Shown here piece after piece: positions 45,588-49,110 of a stretch of 64,000 bases of DNA (position 1 is its first letter; every line of letters begins with the position of its first letter). The stretch lies in the NCBI RefSeq assembly GCF_021117295.1, contig NZ_CP088247.1, positions 4,603,001 to 4,667,000 on the forward strand. Direction: 5' to 3'. The stretch is from Methylorubrum sp. B1-46. Lineage in GTDB: Bacteria > Pseudomonadota > Alphaproteobacteria > Rhizobiales > Beijerinckiaceae. The position numbers and the translations under genes were made by a program. The notes beneath the pieces are model-generated. The model did no database searches and had not been told where the DNA came from. It was given only the letters and a program-made list of their open reading frames with translations.

Positions 45588-46352
45588 TCACGTCCGGAAG
45601 GCCGCGGCGAAGCGGGTCAGTTCCGGCTCGTCGGTGAGGTCGAGCCGCAGCGGCGTCACCGAGATGCGGTTCTCGGCGATCGCCTTGAGGTCGGTGCCGT
45701 TGCCCGGCTCGAACCGCGCCTTGGCAAAGGCGAGCCAGAAATAGGGGTTGCCGCGCCCGTCGTGGCGGGCGTCGATCTGCAGCAGCGCCTGGTTGCGCTG
45801 GCCCTGCGCCGAGACCGCCACGCCCTGCACCTGATCCGGCTCGCAATCGGGAAAGTTGACGTTGACGAGGATGCCGGGCTCGATCCCGATCTCCAGGATC
45901 TTGCGGATCACCCCTGCCCCGTGCGCGGCGGCGCAGGACCATTTCAGGTTGGCCCGCCCGCCCGCGCCGTAGGCCTGGCTCAGCGCGATCGCGCGGATGC
46001 CGAGGATGGTGCCCTCCATGGCGCCGGCGATGGTGCCGGAATAGGTCACGTCCTCGGCGACGTTCTGGCCGCGGTTGACCCCCGACAGCACCAGATCCGG
46101 CCGGTGATCCTTGAGGATGTGCGACACCCCCATGATCACGCAGTCGGAGGGCGTGCCCTTCACCGCGAAGCGCTTGTCCGAGACCTGCCGCAGCCGCAGC
46201 GGATCGTTGAGCGAGAGCGAGTGCGAGACGCCCGACTGGTCGTATTCGGGCGCGACCACCCAGACGTCGTCGCTGAGTTCGCGGGCGATCCCCTCCAGCG
46301 TCTCCAGGCCCGGCGCGTGGATGCCGTCGTCGTTGGTGACCAGGATGCGCAT
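45588..46352 (-). CDS. surE: 5'/3'-nucleotidase SurE
   Basis: A 254-aa survival protein. The N-terminal metal site is [16 protein letters not shown] (two Asp), followed by VVAPEYDQSGVSHSLSL and LSGVNRGQNVAEDVTYSGTIAGAMEG, in segments, all diagnostic. It dephosphorylates nucleoside monophosphates in stress and stationary phase. Its ATG overlaps the serS stop by one base, implying translational coupling. Confidence 0.96.
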   Translation of the reverse strand: MRILVTNDDGIHAPGLETLEGIARELSDDVWVVAPEYDQSGVSHSLSLNDPLRLRQVSDKRFAVKGTPSDCVIMGVSHILKDHRPDLVLSGVNRGQNVAEDVTYSGTIAGAMEGTILGIRAIALSQAYGAGGRANLKWSCAAAHGAGVIRKILEIGIEPGILVNVNFPDCEPDQVQGVAVSAQGQRNQALLQIDARHDGRGNPYFWLAFAKARFEPGNGTDLKAIAENRISVTPLRLDLTDEPELTRFAAAFRT

Positions 46353-47638
46353 CAGTGGTTCGGTCCCTCGATCCGGTTCAGGCCGCCCATGTAGGGCTGG
46401 AGCACCGACGGGATCGTGACGCTGCCGTCGGGGTTCTGGTAGTTCTCCATCACGGCGATCAGCGCGCGGCCGACCGCGACGCCGGAGCCGTTGAGCGTGT
46501 GGACGAAGTTGACGCCCCTGCCCTCCTTGGCCCGGTAGCGCGCATTCATCCGCCGCGCCTGGAACTCGCCGCAGACCGAGCAGGACGAGATCTCCCGGTA
46601 GGTCTGCTGGCCCGGCACCCAGACCTCGATGTCGTAAGTCTTTTGGGAGGCAAAGCCCATGTCGCCGGTGCAGAGCGTCATGACGCGGTAGCTGAGATCG
46701 AGCTTCTTCAGCACGGCCTCGGCGCAGGCGAGCATCCGCTCGTGCTCCTCGTCCGACCTCTCCGGCGCGGTGATCGAGACCAGCTCGACCTTGTTGAACT
46801 GATGCTGGCGCAGCATGCCGCGGGTGTCGCGCCCCGCCGCCCCGGCCTCGGCGCGGAAGCAGGGGGTGAGCGCAGTGTAGCGGAGAGGCAGCTCGTCCTC
46901 GGCCAGAATGCTTTCGCGCACGAGGTTGGTGAGCGGGACTTCGGCCGTGGGGATCAGCCAGAAGCCGTCGCCAGCCGCGAACTGGTCGTCACGAAACTTC
47001 GGCAACTGCGCCGTGCCGAACATCGCTTCGTCGCGCACGAGGACGGGCGGGACAACTTCGGTGTAGCCATGCTCGCTCGTATGCAGGTCGAGCATGAACT
47101 GGCCGAGCGCCCGCTCCAGCCGGGCGAGCTGACCTTTCAGCACCACGAAGCGCGAACCGGAGAGTTTCGCGGCGGCCTCGAAATCCATCAGGCCGGTGGC
47201 TTCGCCGAGTTCGAAATGCTGGCGGCCTTCCGCCAGGCGCGCGCGAGAGGCGTCGAAGCGGCGGTACTCGACATTGCCGTGCTCGTCGGCGCCGGGGGGC
47301 ACATCCGCCTTCGGCCGGTTCGGGATCGCGGCGAGGCGCGCATCGAGGACCTTGGCCGCCTGCGCCTGCGCCGCTTCCAGGCCCGGCGCCTCTTCCTTCA
47401 GGCGGGCGACCTCGGCCATCAGTTCGGCGGCGCGGGCCTCGTCCTTCGCCTTCTTGGCGGCGCCGATCTCCTTGGACAGCGCGTTGCGCCGCTCCTGGGC
47501 CGCCTGCGCCGCCGAGACGGCGCCCTTGCGCGCATCGTCGAGGGCGATCAGCTCGGCGCTCAGGGGCGAGAGACCGCGGCGCTCCAGATCGCGGTCGAAG
47601 GCCTCCGGATTCTCGCGGATGGCGCGGATGTCGTGCAT
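46352..47638 (-). CDS. serS: Seryl-tRNA synthetase
   Basis: A 428-aa class II synthetase. The N-terminal coiled-coil tRNA-binding arm (about 25-105) starts after [22 protein letters not shown]. The catalytic core has motif 2 ([28 protein letters not shown], in parts) and motif 3 ([24 protein letters not shown]). It is the first gene of the serS-surE-pcm-nlpD-like operon. Confidence 0.97.
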
Positions 47639-48117
47639 ATCGGGGCTCTCGAGATCTTGTGCGCGCGAGGGCCCCGCTTTGCCGCATCGCCCCCCGCATC
47701 ACAAGAGTGGGTACGCTGGCGCGCGCCGGGTCGCGGGCATCCGATCCGGGTCGGCGGGGGTGCGCCGTACCGGATTTCCGATAAAATGAGCCGGGAGAGA
47801 GTGGCAAGGATCGCTGCGCATGATCCCGCCACTCCGGCTTGTGGATCACGGCGATCGGCACCACATCGTTGATAATCCCGGCACTTTTCCGCGCCTTTGA
47901 CGGGAGGCGGCCTCTCTCGGATACCGAGTTGGGCGTTCCTGAGAGCTATCTATGAGAAATATAAGTGTAGGGTCCGCTTGAATTGCGCCCAACGGATCGT
48001 CTATATCAAGGGCGTCGAACACGAGGGGCTCGGTGAACAAACGGCCACCACCTCAGTTCGAGGTGGGACGGTCCTGGGACCGACCTTCGTATTCAAATTG
48101 TCATCAGGAGACACGCC
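47639..48117. other. Divergent region serS / pqqA1 with structured leader
   Basis: This 479-bp region is without a supported gene. The right part (47930-48010) is unusually A/T-rich for this genome and holds the pqqA promoter candidate. After it come two hairpins in the untranslated leader: CCACCTC-AGTTC-GAGGTGG (48048-48066) and CGGTCC-TG-GGACCG (48069-48082). The left part holds the serS promoter. Confidence 0.5.
47978..48007 (+). promoter_or_regulatory. pqqA: Promoter candidate for the pqqA pair
   Basis: TTGAAT (47978-47983) and TATATC (48002-48007) with an 18-nt spacer lie about 110 bp before the first pqqA ATG, in an A/T-rich island. The resulting mRNA would carry a leader of roughly 100 nt with two hairpins. 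Confidence 0.5.
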
Positions 48118-48207
48118 ATGAAGTGGTCTGCCCCCGTCGTTGCCGAGATCTGCGTCGGCATGGAAGTCACCTCCTACGAGTCCGCCGAGATCGACACCTT
48201 CAACTGA
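48118..48207 (+). CDS. pqqA: PQQ precursor peptide PqqA, copy 1
   Basis: A 29-aa peptide beginning MKWSAPVVAEICVGMEVTSY, the PqqA signature. E16 and Y20 (E-x3-Y) are the residues joined and processed to pyrroloquinoline quinone, cofactor of methanol dehydrogenase. AGGAG lies 7 nt before the ATG. Copy 2, 62 bp downstream, encodes the same peptide. None of pqqB, C, D or E follows; the next gene converges from the other strand. Confidence 0.95.
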   Translation: MKWSAPVVAEICVGMEVTSYESAEIDTFN

Positions 48208-48217
48208 GAAGGTGCCG

Positions 48218-48232
48218 CCGGCTTCGAGCCGG
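48218..48232 (+). other. Hairpin between the two pqqA copies
   Basis: CCGGC-TTCGA-GCCGG forms a small hairpin 11 bp after the stop of copy 1, followed by a short T-rich stretch (CTTTCATTCATTC). It could weaken transcription into copy 2 or protect the 3' end of copy 1 mRNA. A similar CCGGA-CTCA-TCCGG follows copy 2. Confidence 0.4.
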
Positions 48233-48269
48233 TCCGGCTTTCATTCATTCGTCCAGCAGGAGAAACGTC

Positions 48270-48359
48270 ATGAAGTGGTCTGCTCCCGTCGTTGCCGAGA
48301 TCTGCGTCGGCATGGAAGTCACCTCCTACGAGTCCGCCGAGATCGACACCTTCAACTAA
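48270..48359 (+). CDS. pqqA: PQQ precursor peptide PqqA, copy 2
   Basis: A second 29-aa PqqA identical in peptide sequence to copy 1. The DNA differs by a synonymous change in codon 5 (GCC to GCT) and the stop (TGA to TAA). The 13-bp ribosome-site region is also nearly the same (CAGGAG plus 7 nt). Such near-identity indicates a recent tandem duplication or gene conversion. It is ended by a strong terminator, so the two genes form a stand-alone transcription unit. Confidence 0.95.
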   Translation: MKWSAPVVAEICVGMEVTSYESAEIDTFN

Positions 48360-48393
48360 GAAGGCTGTCGCCGGACTCATCCGGTGAGATCGA

Positions 48394-48428
48394 GGGCGTC
48401 ACCCGAACAGGGTGGCGCCCTTTTCGTT
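48394..48428 (+). terminator. Rho-independent terminator after pqqA2
   Basis: Stem GGGCGTCACCC / GGGTGGCGCCC (11 bp with one G-T wobble), loop GAACA, then TTTTCGTTT. It closes the pqqA transcription unit. Confidence 0.85.
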
Positions 48429-48445
48429 TGCAATGACGCGGCGAG

Positions 48446-48495
48446 AAGCATGAAGGCCGAAGGGTTCTTGGCTGAACCCTTCGGCCTTCATGCTT
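48446..48495. terminator. Perfect 22-bp inverted repeat between pqqA2 and ldtR
   Basis: Arms from 48446-48467 and 48474-48495 pair perfectly over 22 bp (starting AAGCATGAAGGCC) around a 6-nt loop TTGGCT, with TTT after the right arm. It is longer than a usual terminator. It may end ldtR transcripts from the right as well as read-through from pqqA. Confidence 0.6.
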
Positions 48496-48525
48496 TCGGA
48501 ATTGCTCGGTTCGAGGCTTCCTGCA

Positions 48526-48560
48526 CCCGTCATCGCCTCGCTGACGCTCGCGATGACGGG
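48526..48560. repeat. Short REP-like hairpin, copy 1
   Basis: CCCGTCATCGC (48526-48536) and GCGATGACGGG (48550-48560) flank a 13-nt loop. Nearly the same hairpin, CCGTCATCGC...GCGATGACGG, occurs at 61904-61938 next to the P1 peptidase gene. Here it lies 31 bp past the ldtR stop. Confidence 0.6.
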
Positions 48561-48591
48561 AAAAGTCTGCATCAATCCTCGGGAGGGTCGA

Positions 48592-49110
48592 TCACAGCCG
48601 GTAGCGGATCTGGTCGGTCCAGAAGCGCTCCAGGCGGGAGAGCGCGAGGTTGAGACGGCCGAAATCGTCCTCGGAGATGCCGCCGATCGGCTGGATCGTG
48701 CGGGCGTGCTTGTCGTAGAGGCCCTGGATCAGGTCGTGGACCTCGCGGCCCTTCGGGGTCAGGCTGATGCGCACCGAGCGCCGGTCGGTCTTGGAGCGGG
48801 CGTGGTGCAGGAAGCCGGCCTCGACCAGCTTCTTGACGTTGTAGGACACGTTCGAGCCGAGATAGTAGCCCTTGGAGCGCAGCTCGCTCGCGGTCAGCTC
48901 CTTGTCGCCGATGTTGTAGAGCAGTAGCGCCTGGACGCTGTTGACGTCCTCCCGGCCACGCCGGTCGAACTCGTCCTTGATGACGTCGAGGAGGCGGCGG
49001 TGCAGCCGCTCCACGAGGTGCAGCGCCTCGAGATAGGAGCCGGCGGCGCCCTGGGCTTCGGGGGCGGCGTCGGTGGTCTTGAGGGCGGTGTTGGCGGCCT
49101 TCGTGCTCAT
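48592..49110 (-). CDS. ldtR: MarR-family regulator LdtR
   Basis: A 172-aa winged-helix protein. The family-specific N-terminal stretch is SYLEALHLVERLHRRLLDVIKDEFDRRG (in parts), followed by VNSVQALLLYNIGDKELTASEL, GYYLGSNVSYNVKKLVEAGF and the wing HHARSKTDRRSVRISLTPKG. This pattern matches LdtR of Rhizobiales, known to control an L,D-transpeptidase and osmotic tolerance. A palindromic site lies upstream. The first about 25 residues are low-complexity. Confidence 0.88.
   Translation of the reverse strand: MSTKAANTALKTTDAAPEAQGAAGSYLEALHLVERLHRRLLDVIKDEFDRRGREDVNSVQALLLYNIGDKELTASELRSKGYYLGSNVSYNVKKLVEAGFLHHARSKTDRRSVRISLTPKGREVHDLIQGLYDKHARTIQPIGGISEDDFGRLNLALSRLERFWTDQIRYRL

Follow-up and report, generated by a model that had tools for sequence, protein, structure and literature searches.

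Two adjacent pqqA genes lie at positions 48118-48359 of the 64,000-nucleotide stretch of Methylorubrum sp. B1-46 DNA analysed here (the window). The pair is real, functional-looking and old, and is an orphan by position, not by pathway. Very probably it acts as a separately regulated unit dedicated to supplying the precursor peptide of PQQ.

The tandem genes and the distant pqq operon

The two genes and their surroundings are as follows.

46352..47638, reverse strand: serS, the upstream divergent neighbour (TIGR00414, 497 bits)
48106..48110, forward strand: Shine-Dalgarno sequence AGGAG of copy 1 (sequence and alignment)
48118..48207, forward strand: pqqA copy 1, 29 aa, MKWSAPVVAEICVGMEVTSYESAEIDTFN (ORF and PqqA model match)
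48208..48269, forward strand: spacer of 62 nt between the copies, holding the Shine-Dalgarno sequence AGGAG of copy 2 at 48258-48262
48270..48359, forward strand: pqqA copy 2, peptide identical to that of copy 1 (ORF and sequence comparison)
48392..48426, forward strand: intrinsic terminator, hairpin (48392-48422) with T tail (hairpin scan and 16-locus alignment)
48592..49110, reverse strand: ldtR, a MarR-type regulator and the downstream convergent neighbour (NF047395, 275 bits)

The initial annotation had described two 29-aa ORFs, 62 nt apart, which encode the same peptide and differ at one synonymous codon and the stop codon. Positions and differences were borne out, the copies differing at 2 of 90 nt (codon 5, GCC/GCT; stop codon, TGA/TAA). 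The repeat unit is 111 nt long, with 95% identity and 152 nt from start to start, and includes the Shine-Dalgarno region. The peptide passes both PqqA models, TIGR02107 with 36.9 bits (cut-off 20) and PF08042 with 32.2 bits (cut-off 21.1), and E-x3-Y, the residues that become PQQ, is intact in both copies as GMEVTSY, as had been claimed. GMEVT[SA]Y occurs in all 229 pqqA copies collected, most of that motif being required by the finder itself. The strong terminator that had been proposed corresponds to the terminator-like hairpin at 48392-48422, and a similar hairpin and T run are found downstream of the pair in the 16-locus alignment of the window's clade.

A longer ORF (48033-48359, 108 aa) overlaps copy 1 in a different reading frame and finishes in the frame of copy 2; it was set aside because spacer lengths vary (59-72 nt in the window's clade). 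Between the pair and ldtR there is an inverted repeat with 20-nt arms at 48448-48493 (GCATGAAGGCCGAAGGGTTC ... GAACCCTTCGGCCTTCATGC), which may act as a terminator for both transcripts or on the ldtR side only; many of the 16 clade loci have comparable palindromes after the pair, altered in some letters. A second palindromic stretch, which is REP-like, precedes the end of ldtR at 48526-48560 (CCCGTCATCGC ... GCGATGACGGG).

No pqqBCDE genes adjoin the pair, as the initial annotation had stated. The genome search that it had recommended, for pqqBCDE and further pqqA copies, gave three PqqA profile matches, the third of which (C1:2043808-2043864) lies 2.6 Mb from the tandem and heads pqqB, a pqqC-pqqD fusion and pqqE. 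The fusion was found at this locus (L093), and PqqB was assigned by its position and a beta-lactamase-fold match. In the whole genome there is one PqqE match above the cut-off (603 bits), with four weaker radical-SAM matches below it; the pair can therefore feed the sole above-cut-off PqqE in trans. Beside the operon are genes for a response regulator and a histidine kinase, the positional counterparts of MxbM and MxbD of Methylorubrum extorquens AM1 (AM1 tags from passages of PMC6414531 and PMC9320726). The orphan peptide differs from the operon PqqA of the same genome at residues 4, 7 and 9 (S/A, V/I and A/S).

Age and spread of the tandem

The window's clade comprises 16 loci, and the relationship between the copies was assessed by quartets in the 11 two-copy genomes, leaving aside G039 (one copy) and G045, G046, G099 and G101 (three copies). 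At codon 4, copy 1 has TCT in all 11 genomes and copy 2 has TCC in 10, the exception being the window itself (TCT); at codon 5, copy 1 has GCC in all 11 and copy 2 has GCT in 10. Grouping was by copy in 53 of the 55 quartets, which have genomes in common and so are not independent, with none by genome and two ties. The duplication therefore predates the divergence of these genomes: the pair is old relative to ten related genomes, and on this reading both copies would be under selection.

The near-identity of the copies had led the initial annotation to propose recent duplication or gene conversion, which is unsupported for this pair given the copy-specific synonymous sites common to the 11 two-copy genomes; recent duplication is rejected by the quartet test. 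The same copy shows 0-4 differences across the other two-copy genomes of the clade, compared with 2 between the two copies in the window. Pooled over the 10 pairs formed with the window, third positions differ by 4.5% in pqqA (both copies), 17% in serS (203-429 codons aligned per pair) and 10% in ldtR; in the pair with G003, ldtR third positions differ less (6/173) than those of pqqA copy 1 (3/29). Third positions are thus constrained in pqqA, which can explain much of the near-identity.

Beyond the clade the pattern is mixed. In the remaining 64 two-copy orphan genomes, quartets formed with the nearest neighbour grouped 52 times by copy and 6 times by genome, with 6 ties, whereas all pairs (2016 quartets) gave 278 by copy, 1557 by genome and 181 ties. 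The 20 tandems at operon heads gave 16, 1 and 3 by nearest neighbour and 83, 88 and 19 by all pairs. The preponderance of genome groupings among all pairs suggests that copies are homogenised now and then over long times, or that tandems arose more than once. Homogenisation does seem to occur elsewhere, since the first copy in three-copy G045, G046 and G101 is without the copy-1 mark, which three-copy G099 has. A recent origin or recent homogenisation of the window's own pair could also draw on the mere 2 differences in 90 nt, on the identical copies of G029, G056 and G071, and on the copy-1 state (TCT) at codon 4 of the window's copy 2, alone among 11, which may reflect a single substitution or conversion over a very short tract. 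Set against the clade quartets, the nearest-neighbour quartets that go mostly by copy (52/64 orphan tandems; 16/20 operon tandems) and the presence of an orphan tandem in 87 of 111 genomes, we regard such recency as highly improbable.

Those 111 congeneric genomes all have PqqA, and one locus was read in each, the tandem locus where present. The comparison of copy number and spacing across the genus that had been suggested at the outset gave an orphan locus in 88 of them, with the clade spacers varying as described above. Two copies are present in 77 of the orphan loci (2 of these pairs being interrupted by contig ends), three in 9, four in 1 and one in 1, so that 87 have 2-4 copies; the single-copy locus is in G039, a metagenome assembly. 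Of the 85 complete orphan tandems, 30 have copies that do not differ in peptide sequence. The four-copy locus, in G047 (L140, 69-635), has the same peptide throughout and exact 159-nt spacing, at a contig start.

A pqqA tandem directly before pqqB, at the head of the operon, was found in 20/111 genomes (L094, L095, L097, L098, L103, L104, L109, L117, L123-L125, L129, L143, L144, L157, L165, L197-L199 and L202). pqqCD and pqqE follow in 19 of the 20, and in the other (G004, L097) the contig ends after pqqB. This second arrangement also yields two substrate genes, without the promoter block of the orphan loci described below. Only a single operon pqqA was found in G025, G037 (730 contigs) and G110 (390 contigs). 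The orphan unit is dispensable to the genus, since 23/111 genomes are without it (20 with an operon tandem and 3 with a single gene). A family sample of 149 genomes, 8 of which belong to this genus, showed no two model-detected pqqA genes within 100 nt in any other genus, with a model that may miss divergent copies (one in G109 was found by motif search alone). G181, from another genus of the family, has two pqqA genes ~400 nt apart (C53:80323-80844).

Draft contigs end inside the tandem or promoter block or within ~200 nt of them at L112, L114, L140, L166, L170, L171 and L226; as drafts break at the tandem, counts of copies in them may be underestimates. Such breaks at the repeat (G019, G047, G073 and G077) and the one orphan copy of the G039 metagenome assembly are what could be cited for copy 2 being an assembly artefact or a dying relic. 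The window sits within a 5.39-Mb contig, however, its copies differ in both sequence and flanks, and orphan tandems recur in 87 genomes, which leaves that explanation a nearly negligible probability.

A promoter-like block and a clade-specific leader

Upstream of the pair, comparison of the orphan loci points to three further elements.

47950..47967, forward strand: A+T-rich conserved box CTATGAGAAATATAAGTG, with direct repeat TATRAG-N3-TATRAG; lies immediately before the -35 element and is a putative activator site
47977..48006, forward strand: predicted promoter, -35 CTTGAA (47977-47982), 18-nt spacer starting TTGCGCCCAA, -10 CTATAT (48001-48006) (sequence and alignment)
48016..48094, forward strand: probable structured 5' leader, an outer helix closing inner hairpins, with a counterpart in 16 clade loci

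The order upstream of the window pair is CTATGAGAAATATAAGTG, CTTGAATTGCGCCCAA and CTATAT. A simple scan for the sigma-70 consensus gave no promoter at the pair; the block came from cross-genome conservation, and we take CTTGAA and CTATAT to be the -35 and -10 of an alphaproteobacterial promoter. As a pattern, the block consists of [AG]AAATATAAG[TC] followed, 10-11 nt after its AAG, by CTTG(T/A)ATTGCGCCCAA. Within 400 nt of the first ATG, the box [AG]AAATATAAG[TC] is present in 87/88 orphan loci and 0/23 operon loci, the exception being G047, where the 68 nt of contig before the first ATG are too short to show it. The whole block is strict in 83/88 loci, with 1-3 departures from the model in G026, G077, G084 and G095, and AAG and CTTG are 11 nt apart in 85 loci and 10 in 2.

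The first 16 letters of the box are unique in the window genome at up to 2 mismatches. A 14-mer of it has one further 2-mismatch site, compared with three matches of the reversed control, so this site is taken as chance. At up to 3 mismatches, 20 of 25 sampled congeneric genomes have the block (the other five are of the operon type), as against none of 273 sampled genomes from 42 other genera of the family. A search of a collection of 84,980 species gave 66 stretches with one match each to the pattern, 63 from Methylobacterium or Methylorubrum and three from metagenome assemblies; PqqA motifs follow within 700 nt in 63/66, and in the other three the sequence ends 93-172 nt past the element. 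From these distributions the promoter element looks to belong to orphan pqqA loci alone, and no published description of it was recognised in literature searches outside subscription papers.

MxbM is a candidate regulator, by the place of its gene beside the operon and because the orphan genes respond in the same direction as mxa in AM1. Against it, no convincing copy of the box lies near PQQ-dehydrogenase genes: a search for parts of the block near the four above-cut-off PQQ-dehydrogenase genes and the pqqABC/DE region gave only weak 2-mismatch 10-mers. A site shared by mxa and pqq genes is accordingly unsupported, and with no convincing second box site in the genome, no regulon supports an activator.

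The distance from the box to the first ATG in 87 loci is 78-83 nt in 68, 160-164 nt in the 16 loci of the window's clade and 178-192 nt in three. The three longest leaders (G026, G077 and G084; L119, L170 and L177) have a different hairpin-like sequence. In the window's clade the extra stretch is ~82 nt, and its consensus fold is an outer 10-pair helix enclosing two hairpins. Paired cells amount to 98.4% over the 16 loci compared with 34-56% in slid controls, a comparison biased towards the fold, which was itself built from the alignment of these loci. There is modest covariation, with two pairs changed on both sides (21/500 shuffles reach this) and a score reached by 9/500, and 8 of the 10 outer-helix pairs never vary. 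The window's own leader has an MFE of -39.2 (z -2.44) and keeps the outer helix and first hairpin, while its other inner pairs differ from the consensus. The fold is likely, not proven; as the predicted helix begins at about the predicted transcription start (about 48012-48015), it might protect the 5' end. An Rfam search of 47600-48620 gave 11 matches up to E = 1, none above the gathering score. Seven of these sub-threshold matches are to microRNA models, six of them on the downstream palindrome, and they were taken as chance.

Neighbourhood, proposed role and known relatives

In the window's clade the tandem lies mostly between serS and ldtR, and in tblastn searches serS was beside the tandem in this clade only. 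Elsewhere its neighbours are often mgtE on one side and ldtR on the other, or mgtE together with different downstream genes; ldtR is thus also downstream of orphan loci outside the clade. This overlapping chain of neighbours, together with the common promoter block, suggests one ancestral orphan locus whose flanks were replaced over time. A lanmodulin gene is the divergent neighbour in 6/111 loci, from two lineages (G018, G022, G045, G046, G076 and G101), and lies upstream at a distance of about 440-500 nt from the tandem (L111, L115, L138, L139, L169 and L194). All six pass NF053806 with 169-179 bits (cut-off 135), and that of G101 matches solved lanmodulin chains. Three of the six loci are in the window's clade; the window genome has serS there instead. 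The lanmodulin neighbourhood is a link to lanthanides, though not in the window genome, and the pairing is not described in the pqqA passages of the literature that names both.

It is conceivable that the orphan peptides serve not, or not only, PQQ synthesis, as precursors of another modified peptide, for example, or in lanthanide uptake, a role floated in a passage of PMC11317620. The separate promoter-like block, the three residues that differ from operon PqqA, the divergent lanmodulin gene in 6/111 loci and the lanthanide response reported in passages of the AM1 literature would suit such a role. The core is nevertheless that of PqqA, including E-x3-Y, in all 229 copies (under the finder's own requirement noted above), there is a single PqqE above the cut-off, and the identified neighbours of the orphan loci (serS, ldtR, mgtE and eight further clusters, one member each) include no radical-SAM enzyme. 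We consider a role outside PQQ synthesis improbable.

As a supply unit for PQQ synthesis, the pair would work as follows. The sigma-70-type promoter that we infer, with its predicted start site and a putative activator at the conserved upstream box, would direct a two-gene mRNA of ~0.4 kb ending at the strong terminator. Each gene would be translated into the same PqqA, which PqqD, PqqE and the later enzymes, encoded 2.6 Mb away, would convert to PQQ in trans. With substrate genes apart from enzyme genes, peptide supply could be adjusted without altering enzyme supply, which would be useful because each PQQ consumes one peptide. A stoichiometric substrate needs more molecules than enzymes do, a need that extra genes on their own promoter would meet, and both copies of the old duplication would be maintained by selection. 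In the window's clade, closure of the predicted mRNA 5' end in a helix may stabilise the transcript. Separate control is supported by the lanthanide-linked regulation in AM1 and the lanmodulin neighbour in some relatives. The initial reading of the pair as a unit of its own with a role in dosage fits the block-bearing orphan unit in 88/111 genomes and the transcription and regulation of the AM1 copies given in passages in print. More speculatively, the unit could be a private control circuit in which a regulator has the orphan pqqA promoter as its one conserved site in each genome and the PQQ pool is set, according to methanol and lanthanide state, by the supply of peptide and not of enzyme, with the leader of the Methylorubrum clade adding control at the mRNA; this we put forward tentatively, as possible but rather doubtful. 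The promoter block is a defined bait for a regulator linking methanol and lanthanide state to PQQ supply. A caution is that the smallest genes of the pathway may have regulation of their own, or may be fragmented in draft genomes.

Methylovorus sp. MP688 and other Methylophilaceae belong to the Betaproteobacteria, a difference from the window's host. They resemble it in having several pqqA genes (3-12 copies) per usually one pqqBCDE set, according to passages of PMC4109929, and peptide supply in MP688 is reported to be rate-determining, as cited in a passage of PMC11317620. In Methylobacterium aquaticum 22A there are also two pqqA genes, pqqA1A2, whose name suggests an operon-head tandem (the arrangement of 20/111 genomes here), which is without the block; the relevant passages of PMC5784242 have pqqA1A2 up on methanol and pqqBCDE rising only with methanol plus Ca. 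In M. oryzae, pqqA is apart from pqqBC/DE (passage of PMC4161386).

The closest likeness is to pqqA2/pqqA3 of M. extorquens AM1, described in passages of PMC6520949, PMC6414531 and PMC11317620 as two consecutive pqqA genes away from pqqABC/DE that are transcribed and regulated. The AM1 tags there, META1p4628/4629 and MEXAM1_RS21885/RS21890, are taken as the same pair, and were mapped to the window locus by tag order and numbers and by the distance to mxaF. In the window genome the pair is separated by ~103 kb from a gene near-identical to solved MxaF chains. This agrees with the 90-tag distance in AM1 and makes the META1p4628/4629 pair the probable orthologue of the window pair. With La3+, pqqA META1p4628/4629 changed by log2 -3.7/-3.4, compared with -1.7/-2.0/-1.8 for pqqB/CD/E (PMC6414531, in part). 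Orphan pqqA was fourfold higher with NdCl3 than with Nd2O3 in the results of PMC11317620, the discussion stating the reverse, and in strain CM4 two consecutive pqqA paralogues were higher with chloromethane than with methanol (passage of PMC5585157). Published regulation of orphan pqqA is, on these passages, not simple: lowered by La3+, in conflicting directions with Nd and raised by chloromethane. The pqqA passages of the AM1 papers make no mention of a promoter block, leader fold or age of the pair, and the orphan pair is absent from the pqq passages of PMC9320726, which maps starts in DM4.

In AM1, pqqA is reportedly dispensable, going by the title of Toyama and Lidstrom 1998 as cited. Two extra pqqA copies under their own control support an account of this dispensability suggested earlier in a passage of PMC6520949. 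Transposon hits in PMC7391723 include pqqB, pqqCD, pqqE, pqqF and pqqG, with no 'pqqA' in the main text, as expected from redundancy or small size. Orphan pqqA pairs were already known in close relatives; the analysis adds the age of the pair and its wide spread in the genus, together with three points of specialist interest: the single-site promoter block, the leader specific to the clade and the lanmodulin gene beside some of the loci.
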